A stretch of 21,898 nt of DNA from a virus: the IMG/VR virus record IMGVR_UViG_3300047643_000074, positions 1 through 21,898 of that record, one strand, 5' to 3'. The notes under the pieces are model-generated. The model made no database searches. It worked only from the letters and a program-made list of their open reading frames with translations, and was not told the origin of the DNA. Within the stretch, counting starts at the first letter, position 1. Every line of letters starts with the position of its first letter. Shown here piece after piece: positions 1 through 7,464 of the stretch. Position numbers and translations under genes: made by a program.

Positions 1-654
1 TTAGTTAAACCACCTTACAACACCTACAACTTTACCGGCAATTTTGAATTCGTCGTTGTTTAATATTTCTATTGGCCGGTACAAATCATTCTGGGGAATC
101 AATCTAATTTTTCCGTTCTTATTCTCATAAGTTTTAACAGTAGCTTCGTCATTTATTAAAGCCACAATTATATCTCCGTTTACAGCATCTCTTTTAGATG
201 AAACTATAACCAGGTCGCCTTCAAAAATTCCTGCGTTAACCATACTGTCGCCTTTAACCTTAAGTGCAAAGCAGTCGTCCGACATTTTTGTGAATGTTGA
301 ATCGATAACAATATTGCCGTCGATATTTTCTTCGGCAAGAATCGGCAAGCCTGCAGCAACGCGGCCTACAACCGGAACTTTACGAAAGCCGTGGTCTTTT
401 TCAAGCTGGAATAAATTCATTTTAGCTTCGTTCTCATCATCCTTCATAAATGATATGCCGCGGCTTGCATTGCTTTCGATATTAAGGTAGCCTTTTTTAA
501 CAAGAGCATCCAAATGGCGTTTTACGCCGAATGTTGAGGAAATATCAAATTTTTTACCGATTTCCCGCAAAGTAGGCGGGTATCCGTTTTCAGAAAGGAA
601 CTGCCTGATAAAGTTCAGAATATCCGTCTGCCTGTCTGTAAGCTGATCTTTCAT
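1..654 (-). CDS. lexA: LexA, SOS transcriptional repressor and self-cleaving protease
   Basis: Repressor of DNA-damage genes; RecA filaments trigger its self-cleavage. The N-terminal winged helix-turn-helix is clear (LTDRQTDILNFIRQFL, then GYPPTLREIG). The C-terminal S24 peptidase domain has the cleavage pair Ala-Gly in VAAGLP, the nucleophile Ser in GDSMV and the general base Lys in TVKTY. The reading frame is open up to 708, but I start at the ATG at 654 (MKDQLT): an AAGGAGAT site lies 7 bases upstream, and the promoter -10 box at 697-702 rules out a start at 708. This gives 217 residues, near the usual length. An ATG at 681 is a weaker alternative. The gene looks like a normal host lexA; the phage would then begin upstream of it, but a phage-borne copy is not excluded. 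Confidence 0.93.
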   Translation of the reverse strand: MKDQLTDRQTDILNFIRQFLSENGYPPTLREIGKKFDISSTFGVKRHLDALVKKGYLNIESNASRGISFMKDDENEAKMNLFQLEKDHGFRKVPVVGRVAAGLPILAEENIDGNIVIDSTFTKMSDDCFALKVKGDSMVNAGIFEGDLVIVSSKRDAVNGDIIVALINDEATVKTYENKNGKIRLIPQNDLYRPIEILNNDEFKIAGKVVGVVRWFN

Positions 655-696
655 TTTTAATATCTCCTTGTTAGTGCTCATTTGTTTACTATCGTA

Positions 697-725
697 AATA
701 TAGTGCACGAATGTTCACGTGTCAA
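697..725 (-). promoter_or_regulatory. lexA promoter (-35 TTGACA, 17-base spacer, -10 TATATT)
   Basis: On the minus strand TTGACA (725-720) is followed by exactly 17 bases and TATATT (702-697). This is close to a perfect housekeeping sigma-factor promoter. Transcription should start near 690, giving a leader of about 35 bases before the lexA ATG at 654. Confidence 0.75.
703..718. promoter_or_regulatory. Candidate LexA operator (autoregulation)
   Basis: An imperfect palindrome of the form GTGnACnnnnGTnCAC fills the spacer between the -35 and -10 boxes of lexA. LexA normally represses its own gene, and this is the only dyad in the promoter. The half-site resembles, but does not match, the Gram-positive CGAAC-N4-GTTCG box. 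Assignment is by position and symmetry only. Confidence 0.5.
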
Positions 726-830
726 GTATTATTTAAAAATATTTTTAAGGCATGTGATTATTGCACAATATAATGACAAGTGAGGAGATAACTAGTTAGA
801 AAAGCTTTATTTGTTGGCTGAAATCGAACC

Positions 831-978
831 GCTCGTTCTACATAGTGAAGCGATATTGTAGAATGAGGATTATGAGTGAAGTGATGTTTTTATAAAAGAT
901 GCGAAAATAGATTGTATTTCAATAGCTCGTTCTACAATTATTAGCTCGTTCGACATGTTTTTGGCCGCTCGTTCTACA
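831..978. repeat. Five copies of a 12-bp motif (TGTAGAACGAGC on the minus strand)
   Basis: Exact minus-strand copies lie at 978-967, 936-925 and 842-831, and a one-mismatch copy (TGTCGAACGAGC) at 955-944. A partial copy in the opposite orientation (TGTAGAATGAG) lies at 857-867. The three copies nearest the cargo genes are 23 and 19 bases apart. Two related AGTGAAGnGAT strings lie near 844 and 876. Spaced copies beginning with TG at the edge of a Mu-like phage could be transposase-binding end sites; a dispersed host repeat is the alternative. The copy at 967-978 contains the stop codon of the next gene. Confidence 0.55.
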
Positions 979-1396
979 TTTTAAGGGAGTGTCTCACAAA
1001 GGAAGTTGACATATTGTCATAATCAATCATTACCCTTCTTATCTGTCTTTTCTCCGGCCATATCTGATAGTAAATCCAATGGCCGTCACATCTGGCAACG
1101 GCGTAGTAATAGTCCGGAAGATCGAACTCCCAATTAAATTTTTGTTGAGGTAACAGTGATTGAAAGTATTTCAGGTAAGTCCTAGTTATATCAAATTCAT
1201 ATGCCCAAGGACTGTCAATCTTTATATTAAGAAATCGTATTGATTCTCTTATCTTCTCAACAGCATCTTTGCCGTCCAAAGTCTCAAGCTTCTCTGCCAA
1301 CTCCCTGCGTAGTATTAGTTCGAACCTGAAAGGAAATTTCTTATCCGGCTTTTCTTTTAACCGGGCTATTATCTTTGGAAGATTAATTTGAGGCAT
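974..1396 (-). CDS. Hypothetical phage protein, 140 aa (last cargo gene)
   Basis: I do not recognise this protein. It is soluble-looking and charged, with an N-terminal half likely helical (KIIARLKEKP, ELAEKLETLDGKDAVEKI) and an aromatic C-terminal part (DLPDYYYAVARCDGHWIYYQIWP). It has no signal peptide or membrane segment. The ATG at 1396 overlaps the end of the upstream 98-residue gene by 14 bases, so translation is probably coupled. The first 11 codons (MPQINLPKIIA) recur as a stranded copy at 1714-1749 after the methyltransferase, showing that this gene formed the fixed downstream border of a cargo slot. Its stop codon lies in a copy of the TGTAGAACGAGC repeat, which may mark the phage edge. 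Confidence 0.6.
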   Translation of the reverse strand: MPQINLPKIIARLKEKPDKKFPFRFELILRRELAEKLETLDGKDAVEKIRESIRFLNIKIDSPWAYEFDITRTYLKYFQSLLPQQKFNWEFDLPDYYYAVARCDGHWIYYQIWPEKRQIRRVMIDYDNMSTSFVRHSLKM

Positions 1397-1399
1397 TAA
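1365..1399. repeat. 35-bp exact direct repeat, copy 1 (slot downstream border)
   Basis: These 35 bases are identical to 1718-1752. The copy spans the last codons of the 98-residue gene (NASN, stop) and the first codons of the 140-residue gene (MPQINLPKIIA). Flanking bases differ at both ends. The spacing of 353 bases encloses the 98-residue gene. Confidence 0.97.
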
Positions 1400-1679
1400 G
1401 TTGTAATGGTGGTTTTTCTTTGCTGTCGGATAGAAGCAAAAATGAAGTTAGTTGTTTACCTACTACCTTCTTTTGGTTTTCTATAAATTTTTCTTTGGTA
1501 ATTGTCGTTCCCTTCAAAAGCTGCAATATTTTAGCTCTTGATTTGAAATGATAAAAGTGAAACCCATCGGCTTCGCCCCACTTAGTCGATTGTATTGAGT
1601 AAGCTTCTTTATCGCCAACAATCATAGCGCAATAATTCCCGACATCTTTGTATATTGGATAATTTGGCTTTTCCCTCAT
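1383..1679 (-). CDS. Hypothetical cargo protein, 98 aa
   Basis: I do not recognise this small protein. Visible features are an aromatic, histidine-containing middle (ADGFHFYHFKSRAKILQLL) and a lysine-rich C-terminal part; there is no signal peptide or membrane helix. The ATG at 1679 has GAGGAG 6 bases upstream. That ribosome site lies in a near copy of the sequence before the methyltransferase start, and the last four residues (NASN) and stop are shared with the methyltransferase. The gene therefore occupies the same slot type as the methyltransferase, between identical borders. By context it is a phage cargo (moron) gene; it could act with the methyltransferase or independently. Confidence 0.6.
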   Translation of the reverse strand: MREKPNYPIYKDVGNYCAMIVGDKEAYSIQSTKWGEADGFHFYHFKSRAKILQLLKGTTITKEKFIENQKKVVGKQLTSFLLLSDSKEKPPLQLNASN

Positions 1680-1702
1680 GCTGCTCTCCTCTAAATATTT
1701 TC
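1676..1702. repeat. Cassette upstream border, second copy (27 bp, 25 identical to 2494-2520)
   Basis: This stretch reproduces the 3' end of the F-like head gene together with the GAGGAG ribosome site and the start-stop overlap. It differs from 2494-2520 at two positions: the start codon is ATG instead of GTG, and one T in the minus-strand TTT run has become A. The change creates a TAG in the old F frame. Confidence 0.9.
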
Positions 1703-1713
1703 GATTGTTTTAA

Positions 1714-1749
1714 TCATGCTATTATCTTTGGAAGATTAATTTGAGGCAT
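1714..1749 (-). pseudogene. Stranded 5' remnant of the 140-aa cargo gene
   Basis: The ATG at 1749 opens MPQINLPKIIA, identical to the start of the gene at 1396, and then meets TGA at 1716-1714. It overlaps the methyltransferase end exactly as the intact gene overlaps the 98-residue gene. A following ATG at 1717 gives only eight codons before TAG at 1691. This is a recombination scar, not a functional gene. Confidence 0.85.
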
Positions 1750-1752
1750 TAA
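1718..1752. repeat. 35-bp exact direct repeat, copy 2 (slot downstream border)
   Basis: Identical to 1365-1399. It contains the methyltransferase C-terminus (NASN, stop) and the truncated start of the 140-residue gene. Together with 1676-1702 it shows that the methyltransferase and the 98-residue gene have the same borders. Confidence 0.97.
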
Positions 1753-2497
1753 AAGCTTCTTTTATAATCAGGAACAGTATGTAGGCTATTTGCGGAACAA
1801 TGGCATTATCCAGTCCAGATAATCTATATTCGTCCAATTTTCGGGGTAACCCATCATCATCTCGACAAATGAGATTTTCAAATTTCTGCCAGTTGTGCAT
1901 TTTATCATTTCTACTAAAGACATGCTGAAGAAGTTCCCATTCTCCTGGTTTTTTTTTATTTTTTTCTTCAATGAAGCAATTTTGAAATTTCTCGAATATC
2001 TTAAGCCATCCGAAGCGGTTGGAGTAGGCAACAACCCAAAGCCTTGCCCGCTTATGTCGGGCTCCCATTTCACTTGCTTGTATAACTTGCCATTCAATAT
2101 TATACCCGATTTCGGAAAGGGCTCCGAGGATAATTGGTAATCCTTTATTAACGAGGTTCCTGACGTTTTCAATAATGATAAATGGTGGTCGTAGTTCATT
2201 GATGATTCTAAAGTATTCAAACCAAAGTCCGCTTCTTTTGCCTTCAAGCCCTTTTCCTTTTAAGTTTATAATTGATATATCCTGGCATGGGAATCCACCA
2301 GTTAGAACATCAACTTTTGGTAAATTCATTAATCCCACTTTTTTAACATTGGTAAATCTATTAACCAGTGGAAATTTTCCCTCCAATAACCTTAAGCAAA
2401 ACTCATTGTTTTCAACCTGGAAAACATTCTCAATGCCTGCCCATTGCGCTGCCAAATCAAAACCGCCGATCCCGGTGAATAAACTGCGATGAGTCAC
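1736..2497 (-). CDS. C5 cytosine-specific DNA methyltransferase (Dcm family)
   Basis: Transfers a methyl group from S-adenosylmethionine to carbon 5 of cytosine in DNA; in a phage this usually protects against host restriction. Visible motifs are I (FTGIGGFDLAAQWAG, residues 7-21), IV with the catalytic Cys71 (GGFPCQDIS), VI (ENV, 110-112) and VIII (HKRARLWVVA, 148-157). A short recognition region follows, then a motif X-like C-terminus (GLPRKLD, LDNAIVPQ near 229-236). At 253 residues it is a compact phage-type enzyme. The usual LGNA reads LDNA, which might affect activity. The start is GTG at 2497 with GAGGAG 6 bases upstream, overlapping the TGA of the F-like gene. A second gene is nested in its +1 frame. 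Target sequence cannot be read from the protein. Confidence 0.93.
   Translation of the reverse strand: MTHRSLFTGIGGFDLAAQWAGIENVFQVENNEFCLRLLEGKFPLVNRFTNVKKVGLMNLPKVDVLTGGFPCQDISIINLKGKGLEGKRSGLWFEYFRIINELRPPFIIIENVRNLVNKGLPIILGALSEIGYNIEWQVIQASEMGARHKRARLWVVAYSNRFGWLKIFEKFQNCFIEEKNKKKPGEWELLQHVFSRNDKMHNWQKFENLICRDDDGLPRKLDEYRLSGLDNAIVPQIAYILFLIIKEAFNASN
1786..2247 (-). CDS. Nested +1-frame gene inside the methyltransferase (PTPTASD/MGYPENWT protein, 153 aa)
   Basis: This frame lies wholly inside the methyltransferase gene, shifted by +1. It contains two motifs that I recall from the C-terminal regions of many phage-type cytosine methyltransferases or their companion proteins: GFGLLPTPTASDG (residues 69-81) and FVEMMMGYPENWT (127-139). 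A further stretch resembles the segment usually before them (SSEPFPKSGIILNGKLY, 40-56). The same DNA gives methyltransferase motif VIII and the motif X region in frame 0, so both frames look selected. The first possible start after an in-frame TAA is TTG at 2247, with AAGG repeats upstream (AAAAGGAAAAGG); an ATG at residue 17 is an alternative. Function is unknown. A specificity or regulatory partner of the methyltransferase is a guess. Confidence 0.6.
   Translation of the reverse strand: MKAKEADFGLNTLESSMNYDHHLSLLKTSGTSLIKDYQLSSEPFPKSGIILNGKLYKQVKWEPDISGQGFGLLPTPTASDGLRYSRNFKIASLKKKIKKNQENGNFFSMSLVEMIKCTTGRNLKISFVEMMMGYPENWTNIDYLDWIMPLFRK
1949..1965 (-). other. A7-T-A9 slippery tract in the dual-coded region
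   Basis: On the coding strand seven A, one T and nine A follow each other. The tract lies between the two conserved blocks of each overlapping frame. A run of nine A is long enough for transcriptional slippage, and loss of one A would move a reader from the methyltransferase frame into the nested frame. Confidence 0.5.
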
Positions 2498-2520
2498 GCT
2501 GCTCTCCTCAAAATATTTTC
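2494..2520. repeat. Cassette upstream border, first copy
   Basis: Contains the last codons of the F-like gene, the GAGGAG ribosome site and the GTGA overlap with the methyltransferase start. It is repeated with two changes at 1676-1702 in front of the 98-residue cargo gene. Confidence 0.9.
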
Positions 2521-3252
2521 TACTTCTTTCCAGTTTTCATCTACCCAGAGCCACTCGTGCATACAATTATAGCCGCCGCAGTTGCGCAACACGGATAAGC
2601 CCTGGCCGTTGTCCATTGCATTTATTTGAAGCTCCGTATAGAGCAAACCGGCATCCAGGAGGGCTGAGCAGAAGGGGCGTATATGTACATCGTACGGGCC
2701 GAAGTAAGCCGCCTTAGTTAATCCTGCAAGCCCTGCGATAGTTTGTGCGGCGGTATTATCAAAGCCTGCAAGTTGGGTGTTTATAATCGTTTTGGAAACG
2801 CTGAGAGGCACCCGGAGTCTGTCCTGAACAAGCCTTCTTGCCCGTGTCTCTGTAAACTGCCCGTCCCTGTAACGGTCTAGTATGCCCTGCATTTCTCTTA
2901 TAGTGGGCTCGCTACTTTGATTAACCTGAGGGAGTATTGAATAATCGATTGGATACTGAAATGCCAGTGAGTCTTTAATTGCATTGTTGATGTCTATAAG
3001 TTTGTCCCTGCCTGCATCCTGCATATTGGATGAATCGTAGTTTAATTCGTTTATAAAACTGTCGATAGCATTCCGGAAGTCACCGGCTGTAATTGTAAGG
3101 GGATCGGTGGAGGCGAAGATATTACCGACTTCCGTTTCATAATCACGTAGTAAGTTATAGAAGCTCTTGCCGATTGAATTGTCTATTGCAAGCTTTAACT
3201 TATTCCGCTTTTTATAAAGCTCTATATATTTAGGAATATCAACGTACGGCAT
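2494..3252 (-). CDS. F-like phage head morphogenesis protein (Mu gp30 family)
   Basis: Minor head protein thought to help assemble the capsid around the portal. The C-terminal part fits the Mu F family: an RLRVPLSVSKTIINTQLAGF helix, a GPYDVHIRPFCSALL segment corresponding to the family DERTRP-type motif, and a terminal cysteine/histidine motif (NCGGYNCMHEWLWV, near residues 223-236). At 252 residues it is shorter than Mu F and corresponds mainly to the C-terminal domain with a helical N-terminal part. It overlaps the zinc-ribbon gene upstream by 14 bases and the methyltransferase by 4. It lies at the end of the early/middle block, far from portal and terminase, which is unusual because Mu has gp29, F and G consecutively. 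Confidence 0.7.
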   Translation of the reverse strand: MPYVDIPKYIELYKKRNKLKLAIDNSIGKSFYNLLRDYETEVGNIFASTDPLTITAGDFRNAIDSFINELNYDSSNMQDAGRDKLIDINNAIKDSLAFQYPIDYSILPQVNQSSEPTIREMQGILDRYRDGQFTETRARRLVQDRLRVPLSVSKTIINTQLAGFDNTAAQTIAGLAGLTKAAYFGPYDVHIRPFCSALLDAGLLYTELQINAMDNGQGLSVLRNCGGYNCMHEWLWVDENWKEVENILRRAA

Positions 3253-4450: not shown

Positions 4451-5101
4451 CTATTGTAATAGTTTAGTGCTCTTGTTAGTATTAATTCCTTTTCTAATTT
4501 CTATGCTTTCACCATGTCTGTAACCCTGGCTGAAAGCTGCGCTTACGTTGCCATCGGGCTTAATTGATTTTGATTCATGTGGCCCAAAATTTTTAACGTA
4601 TTCTTCAAGGCGTAAGGCATGACTGACTAATATTAAGCCTTCCTGCTCTTCCGGCTTCGGCTGTTGTTTCCGCAATTTCTCGAATAATCCGGCATAAATT
4701 CCATATAGGAAAATCTGCCTGTTTCTTACACGGCCGCGCTTCATTTTCCATGTAAGCCTGAATATCTGTATTAAATAATTATATGTATACATGGCTATTT
4801 CTAGGTCGGTTTTTGTGCCGATAAAAATTATACCTTCGCAGGAAGTAAGTGCTCGTACATTAAAGAAAGTATCAATTATTAAGGCAGCATATTTGCATTC
4901 CCACTGGATCCTGTGGGCTCTTGAAACATCGTGGGTTATCGGCTCACGTTTAGCCTCGTCCGGGTTGATTTTATTGAGATCTAAATTATGTTTGGCGGCA
5001 AGCTTTTGCGCAAGTAAAAGAGCCGTTTCAATTTCGGCTTGTGTGCCGCCATGCTTCATTCTCAATAGTTTTTTAATTGTCTCTATAACCGATTCACTCA
5101 T
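4451..5101 (-). CDS. DUF2786 protein
   Basis: The N-terminus (VIETIKKLLRMKHGGTQAEIETALLLAQKLAAKHNLDL, residues 5-42) is the characteristic DUF2786 helical domain found in many phages. It is followed by a second domain with a hydrophobic helix pair (YTYNYLIQIFRLTWKMKRGR) and a C-terminal AFSQGYRHG motif, also usual for the family. The biochemical function is unknown. The gene starts on an ATGA overlap with the coiled-coil gene upstream and precedes Gam, a common place for this family in Mu-like early regions, so a DNA-metabolism role is plausible. Confidence 0.8.
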   Translation of the reverse strand: MSESVIETIKKLLRMKHGGTQAEIETALLLAQKLAAKHNLDLNKINPDEAKREPITHDVSRAHRIQWECKYAALIIDTFFNVRALTSCEGIIFIGTKTDLEIAMYTYNYLIQIFRLTWKMKRGRVRNRQIFLYGIYAGLFEKLRKQQPKPEEQEGLILVSHALRLEEYVKNFGPHESKSIKPDGNVSAAFSQGYRHGESIEIRKGINTNKSTKLLQ

Positions 5102-5872: not shown

Positions 5873-6094
5873 CTAATTCTTATGTATTTCCATAAATATT
5901 GCCAGTTCATTTATCTCTTCCATCTTTGTCCATGCCCTTTTTTGCCTGCCCTGGCAGCCGGAAAAGATGAATATTTGTAACTGCGCATTGTAATAGAACA
6001 TCAATGCCGCGCTGTCGTTCAAGTCCGGGTAATCCCGTTTTGCTTCGGTAAGAACCCTGCCGAAAAGCTTTGTTGTTATTGCCTGTTTATTCAT
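5873..6094 (-). CDS. Hypothetical protein, 73 aa
   Basis: Not recognised. It has mixed helices with an aromatic centre (ALMFYYNAQLQIFIFSGCQ) and no convincing membrane segment. It starts on an ATGA overlap with the upstream gene and lies 17 bases before the next, consistent with a real coupled gene in the middle operon. Confidence 0.5.
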   Translation of the reverse strand: MNKQAITTKLFGRVLTEAKRDYPDLNDSAALMFYYNAQLQIFIFSGCQGRQKRAWTKMEEINELAIFMEIHKN

Positions 6095-6903: not shown

Positions 6904-7464
6904 TCAGCTTATATTTTTATAAAGCTCGTTGAATTTTCTTAAAAAGTTTCTTTCAGCTTCAACCGGTGTTAACTGAACTTCGAGGTGAATATTTATTTTT
7001 GCCGATACAGCTATTTCAAAGTTCGGAAAAGAAGTGAGCTCTTTAATCTCTAAAGCAAGTAATGAAATATCATATTCCCGTATTGTTTGTGGTTCGGTAG
7101 CGGGAAGCCCGAACCTTTCATAAATCATTGTCTGCAATAAAACCTCCGCAGCCCTGTATCCACTCATCATATTTTCATATTTAATCGGCCTGATTATATC
7201 GCCTAAATATGCTTCCGATGCATCATGCAACAAGCCCATTAAGGCAAGCTTCTTATCATTTTTAGCTTTAAGAATCTCAGAACTTATTATAAGGCTATGC
7301 TCAGCAACGCTATAAAAGTTTTTGCAATGCCCGTTAAACCTGCATTGAAGAGCAAGCGAGTGAGCTATATCTTCAATTTTAATTTCCGATGGAAACGGTT
7401 CCAGAGGATAAAATTTTGTCCCGCCGAAAGTGGCCATCCAATCACCATATCTACAAGTTTCCAT
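6904..7464 (-). CDS. HD-domain phosphohydrolase (YfbR-like phage nucleotidase)
   Basis: This is the phage form of the YfbR/HDDC2-type HD family. The typical opening is present (GGTKFYPLEPFPSEIKIEDI, residues 14-33; then CRFNGHCKNFYSVAEHS, 41-57). The metal ligands are His56, His80-Asp81 (LLHDASEAYLGD) and a later Asp132 (REYDISLLALE). Family members remove phosphate from deoxynucleoside monophosphates, so it may alter the nucleotide pool during replication. At 186 residues the length is normal. It lies 12 bases after the winged-helix gene and 8 before GemA. Substrate cannot be told from sequence. Confidence 0.85.
   Translation of the reverse strand: METCRYGDWMATFGGTKFYPLEPFPSEIKIEDIAHSLALQCRFNGHCKNFYSVAEHSLIISSEILKAKNDKKLALMGLLHDASEAYLGDIIRPIKYENMMSGYRAAEVLLQTMIYERFGLPATEPQTIREYDISLLALEIKELTSFPNFEIAVSAKINIHLEVQLTPVEAERNFLRKFNELYKNIS

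Follow-up and report, generated by a model that had tools for sequence, protein, structure and literature searches.

In position, the slot described here resembles Mu mom/com, where a DNA modification gene likewise lies next to the right end of the genome, although mom is not a C5-cytosine methyltransferase. Closer to it in mechanism stand the phages Brujita and Island3, which differ by gene 68, with about 60 bp of duplicated sequence flanking it; this case was attributed to boundary-sequence recombination, with gain or deletion both being possible via homologous recombination (PMC3029335). In temperate coliphages, mosaic formation that is driven by homology and yet tolerates divergence has been demonstrated (PMC3945230). 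Finally, Mu-like phages of Pseudomonas aeruginosa carry regions of genomic plasticity (RGPs), whose mode of acquisition was called mysterious and in which no common flanks were seen (PMC4378225). As a rule, the gain of a single accessory gene by a phage can no longer be read, its junctions having decayed. Boundary-sequence recombination and Mu-like accessory regions are both already described, and what the present locus adds is a case in which the two borders and the two cargos can still be read.

The window, by which we mean the whole stretch of 21,898 nt that was analysed, is the virus record IMGVR_UViG_3300047643_000074 of the IMG/VR collection. Judged by its genes, the phage is a Mu-like virus of Ignavibacteria-type bacteria. 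Namely, in addition to a terminase, the window encodes the four proteins by which we recognized Mu-like membership: a Mu-type transposase (PF09299, E=4.9e-5, above cut-off), its AAA+ partner (AAA_22, E=9.3e-12), Gam (Phage_Mu_Gam, E=1.5e-27) and a Mu portal (Portal_Mu, E=1.9e-60). The second mark of such membership, i.e. transposase-type repeats together with a terminal TG, was found at the right ends of all four phages compared here. Two of the three relatives, IMGVR_UViG_3300023503_000172 (G001) and IMGVR_UViG_3300021604_000008 (G002), were reached via the portal, which opened the family, whereas the F-like protein, the 140-codon protein or the transposase alone retrieved no relative when used as queries. 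The third, G003, which is a prophage in an assembly from the Melioribacteraceae, was reached via a transposase alignment; neither viral contigs nor the host order nor a sample of the class yielded additional close members when searched with alignments of the transposase and of the AAA+ partner. Core genes are collinear between the window phage and all three relatives, which are distant (35-50% identity in the F and transposase proteins).

Table 1. Features of the accessory region and its surroundings (window coordinates).
Feature	Position	Strand	Remarks
F-like head protein gene	2494-3252	-	ends the conserved part of the early operon; anchors the variable site on the left
Left border, copy 1	2494-2520	-	F-gene end and GAGGAG site, before the methyltransferase; 25/27 versus 1676-1702
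Cassette 1: C5-cytosine DNA methyltransferase	1736-2497	-	253 aa, GTG start; PF00145, E=9.8e-42
Right border, copy 1	1718-1752	-	stranded 11-codon start of the 140-codon gene, then TGA; exact 35-nt match to 1365-1399
Middle chimeric junction	1676-1752	-	140-gene start joined to F-gene end; 70/77 matches to the two sources
Left border, copy 2	1676-1702	-	F-gene end remnant and GAGGAG site, before the 98-codon gene; 25/27
Cassette 2: 98-codon gene	1383-1679	-	no family match
Right border, copy 2	1365-1399	-	beginning of the 140-codon gene, here intact; identical to 1718-1752 over all 35 nt
140-codon gene	974-1396	-	no family match
Right transposition end	774-979	-	terminal TGACAAGTGAGGAGATAAC at 774; TGTAGAACGAGC-type repeats at 831, 925, 944, 967
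Host lexA and promoter, outside the phage	1-773	-	TIGR00498, E=6.9e-65

Reading along the minus strand, the F-like gene is followed by the methyltransferase, the 98-codon gene and the 140-codon gene (Table 1); in other words, two unrelated genes stand in tandem, and both have an F-gene end before them and a 140-gene start after them. We consider it likely that the block represents the accessory genes which a Mu-like transposable phage carries at its right end, preserved as a partly resolved recombinant. The original prediction had described a 27-base border with 25 identities before both cargo genes, an exact 35-base border after both of them, and, between the two, a stranded 11-codon start of the 140-residue gene. 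All three are borne out, the middle copy reading MPQINLPKIIA and then TGA. The two differences between the left borders are TTG to TAG and the change of the start codon from GTG to ATG. Over longer stretches, the left borders agree at 30 of 36 nt and the right borders at 44 of 48 nt, with the copies spaced 818 nt and 353 nt apart, respectively. The 35-mer is the longest exact repeat of the region as well as of the whole window, the longest one in the shuffled sequence of the region being at most 16 nt, and among direct repeats of at least 28 nt in the whole window the two border families rank top, the sole other one being 71% identical. Just beyond the exact 35 nt, four mismatches fall within 13 nt (P = 0.004 if placed at random), and this pattern may signify either a homologous part of no more than 35 nt or an event of gene conversion. 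What is seen here is, in short, a mark of boundary-sequence recombination, i.e. a short homologous sequence duplicated at the borders of inserted genes.

Since both borders are common to two cassettes, one could argue that a recombinase recognises them and stacks genes at this place, as in an integron. We find such a dedicated cassette system exceedingly improbable: the borders are the coding edges of two neighbouring genes and are not palindromic, no such site is present in the relatives with an empty slot, border repeats of this kind are absent from the relatives, and none of the window proteins that were searched was recognisable as a site-specific recombinase.

The middle junction consists of a 140-gene start of 48 nt (44 matching) and an F-gene end of 29 nt (26 matching), with the best split point at 1705, and its mismatches (4/48 and 3/29) amount to seven private differences in 77 nt. 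Translated, the F-end remnant gives KTIENI, a stop, RRAA and another stop, as compared to KEVENILRRAA in the intact gene. The neighbouring codons (KTIENI versus KEVENI) differ in addition to the TTG/TAG change, which is to be expected if the remnant stems from a diverged relative. The same private differences bear on the question of whether the tandem was created during assembly, by merging two variants from the sample into one contig via their shared borders. Strain mixtures are possible in an IMG/VR virus record, and the borders are indeed shared. However, stringing the outer borders together would not give the junction, and a fusion with mismatches of its own makes assembly duplication unlikely. 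What is more, the exact stretch that the two variants would have shared, 35 nt, is small compared with the word sizes typical of the final step of an assembly. Taken together, we regard an artefact of this type as very unlikely.

How could the two cassettes have come together? One parent would have been a phage with the order F gene, methyltransferase and 140 gene, and the other a related phage, or a second copy, with the order F gene, 98-codon gene and 140 gene. With the border regions able to act as homology arms, a misaligned exchange would have joined the 140-gene start of the first parent to the F-gene end of the second, keeping both cassettes. We infer both the parents and the recombination, because no single-cassette relative was found. 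As both borders and the chimeric junction are legible, it is possible to reconstruct the event and to predict the two products of its resolution. Namely, a crossover at the 35-nt repeats would remove 353 bp, including the 98-codon gene, and restore one of the parents, while a crossover at the 27-nt repeats would remove 818 bp, including the methyltransferase, and restore the other. The collections searched, in which close relatives are lacking altogether, contained no phage with either cassette alone, and a degenerate MPQINLPKIIA pattern had no match in viral contigs; the check originally proposed, i.e. a relative with an F-like gene, a single gene and the MPQINLPKIIA gene, likewise yielded no such phage. 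The original interpretation stands in part: the chimeric junction with its private, slightly diverged sequence fits recombination between two related phages, or an equivalent exchange between copies that each bear a cassette, but the parents are unseen.

The same final order could be reached by duplication within a single phage, if an unequal exchange doubled the slot and one cargo was later replaced from outside at the same borders. An exact copy of 35 nt fits a recent duplication well. On the other hand, such a history requires one extra step, and the F-end remnant is already diverged, with codon-like changes over the 36 nt compared, while the right border is exact. We therefore hold it to be rather improbable; as far as the codon-like divergence of the remnant can tell, it favours a related phage over self-duplication. 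The tandem thus looks like a recent, half-resolved recombination between two related viruses, i.e. phage gene shuffling of a recognised kind that is seldom so readable.

In Brujita and Island3, as here, part of a neighbouring gene has been duplicated and flanks an accessory gene close to the right end (PMC3029335). Unlike there, both sides of the cassette are duplicated in the window, two different cargo genes are present in tandem, and the junction retains parts of both neighbours.

Concerning the cargos themselves, the methyltransferase is further matched by phrog_363 (E=7.6e-62) and, above cut-off, by TIGR00675, and it contains motifs I, IV (PCQ), VI (ENV), VIII (RxR) and X, as is characteristic of C5-cytosine enzymes. 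Going by its family, it probably modifies phage DNA against host restriction. The 98-codon gene has no match in Pfam, PHROGs or PADLOC and an insignificant one in NCBIfam (E=0.087), and no relative of it was found among phage records or 79 genomes of the family. For the 140-codon protein, a weak match to a transcriptional regulator was obtained in the PDB (3qfi, E=0.0049), and in a two-sequence comparison the similarity between its N-terminus and that of the F-like protein was not significant (E=0.084). Single-sequence structure models were poor for both small proteins (mean pLDDT of 41.7 for the 140-codon and 46.1 for the 98-codon protein).

The start codons of both cargo genes overlap the stop codon of the F border, as GTGA in the methyltransferase and ATGA in the 98-codon gene, GAGGAG lies six bases upstream of both, and the NASN* with which both proteins end is encoded by the respective copies of the right border. 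In other words, the imported genes borrow expression signals and C-terminal codons: the F-gene end supplies the ribosome site and the 140-gene start the last codons. Strictly, a moron is one gene that has a promoter and a terminator to itself; matches to promoter and terminator consensus sequences are weak only, and the cargo genes, which overlap the operon and use the ribosome site of the latter, are not filed as such. The G+C content of the cassettes (35-38%) is below that of most of the early operon (mostly 40-45%), and low values are present in other window genes, too.

Homologs of the F-like gene are found at the same place in all three relatives (47% identity in G002, 39% in G001 and 35% in G003); its name is based on the original prediction and on a C-terminal motif, with no Pfam family at cut-off. 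What follows this gene differs, being three genes in the window, one of 108 codons in G001 and none in either G002 or G003, after which the transposase-type repeats and the phage end come next in the relatives. None of the methyltransferase, 98-codon and 140-codon genes has a homolog in the three relatives. The prediction of a modular slot holds in that what comes after the F-like gene varies, but the 140-codon gene is not its conserved right anchor. Because no relative has this gene, the variable block extends from the F-like gene to the right transposition end, and because the relatives are distant, the variability seen spans a long time. Defence or modification genes, which had been expected in the slot of relatives, were not recognised in any of the three. 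Non-homologous genes at a fixed place beside conserved genes are, at the same time, what defines an RGP. As in P. aeruginosa, the accessory genes are mostly short and lie at fixed places between core genes, with zero to several at each, and some of the P. aeruginosa regions coincide with low G+C (PMC4378225). Unlike there, the flanks are readable here, and the proteins and the host group differ. Early-operon genes at 4451-5101 (DUF2786/DUF7168), 5873-6094 (unknown) and 6904-7464 (HD-domain protein) are also without counterparts in the relatives, which makes the slot one of several variable places in the operon. In a more distant Mu-like Melioribacteraceae prophage (G042), a 316-codon gene with several similar repeats, AP2-like by eye, comes directly after the F-like gene (L076:9144-10094).

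The right end itself carries a terminal motif (TGTTAAGTGAANNGATAA type) that is common to the four phages, while the flanks differ in the three relatives. Arrays of 11-12 bp repeats (TGTAGAACGAGC, TGTCGTTGCGC, TGTCCGATGAGC) are present at the right end of every phage (831, 925, 944 and 967 in the window; L008:2523-2670; L009:4117-4275; L038:8729-8877), with G002 and G003 having one repeat sequence in common. Such repeats are probably transposase sites whose sequence varies between members. In the G003 prophage, the right end also includes an exact 50-nt tandem duplication comprising the terminal motif (L038:8880-8979).

Beyond this end lies lexA. Both the LexA protein and the promoter are conserved at other Melioribacteraceae lexA loci, and the window LexA is 49% identical to that of G001 and up to 61% to those of hosts. 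A phage-borne lexA was judged unlikely, as promoter and protein match the host loci. The phage end is situated upstream of the lexA -35 box, in the same orientation, at a distance of 48 bp in the window, 44 bp in G001 and 39 bp in G002 (window 1-774; L008:2726-2824; L009:4332-4425), and upstream of mraZ instead in G003; three of the four insertions are thus upstream of lexA. With right flanks only and n=4, a target preference is a lead and not a result. Tentatively, and at somewhat less than an even chance, we propose a Mu-like family that differs from Mu in its preferred insertion 39-48 bp upstream of the host lexA -35 box in one orientation, such that the cargo operon faces the lexA promoter. 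In Pseudomonas Mu-like phages, target choice is mostly random, some having hotspots (PMC5977238), and a search for phage integration upstream of lexA gave no report among the papers covered. Insertion near lexA may be more unusual than the cargo tandem.

The legible junction opens a view of gene acquisition of a kind that is lacking in the Pseudomonas Mu-like phages, where no common flanks were seen (PMC4378225). If the insertion preference is true, recombination at the borders would shuffle cargo at a phage end located right beside lexA, the gene of the SOS repressor.
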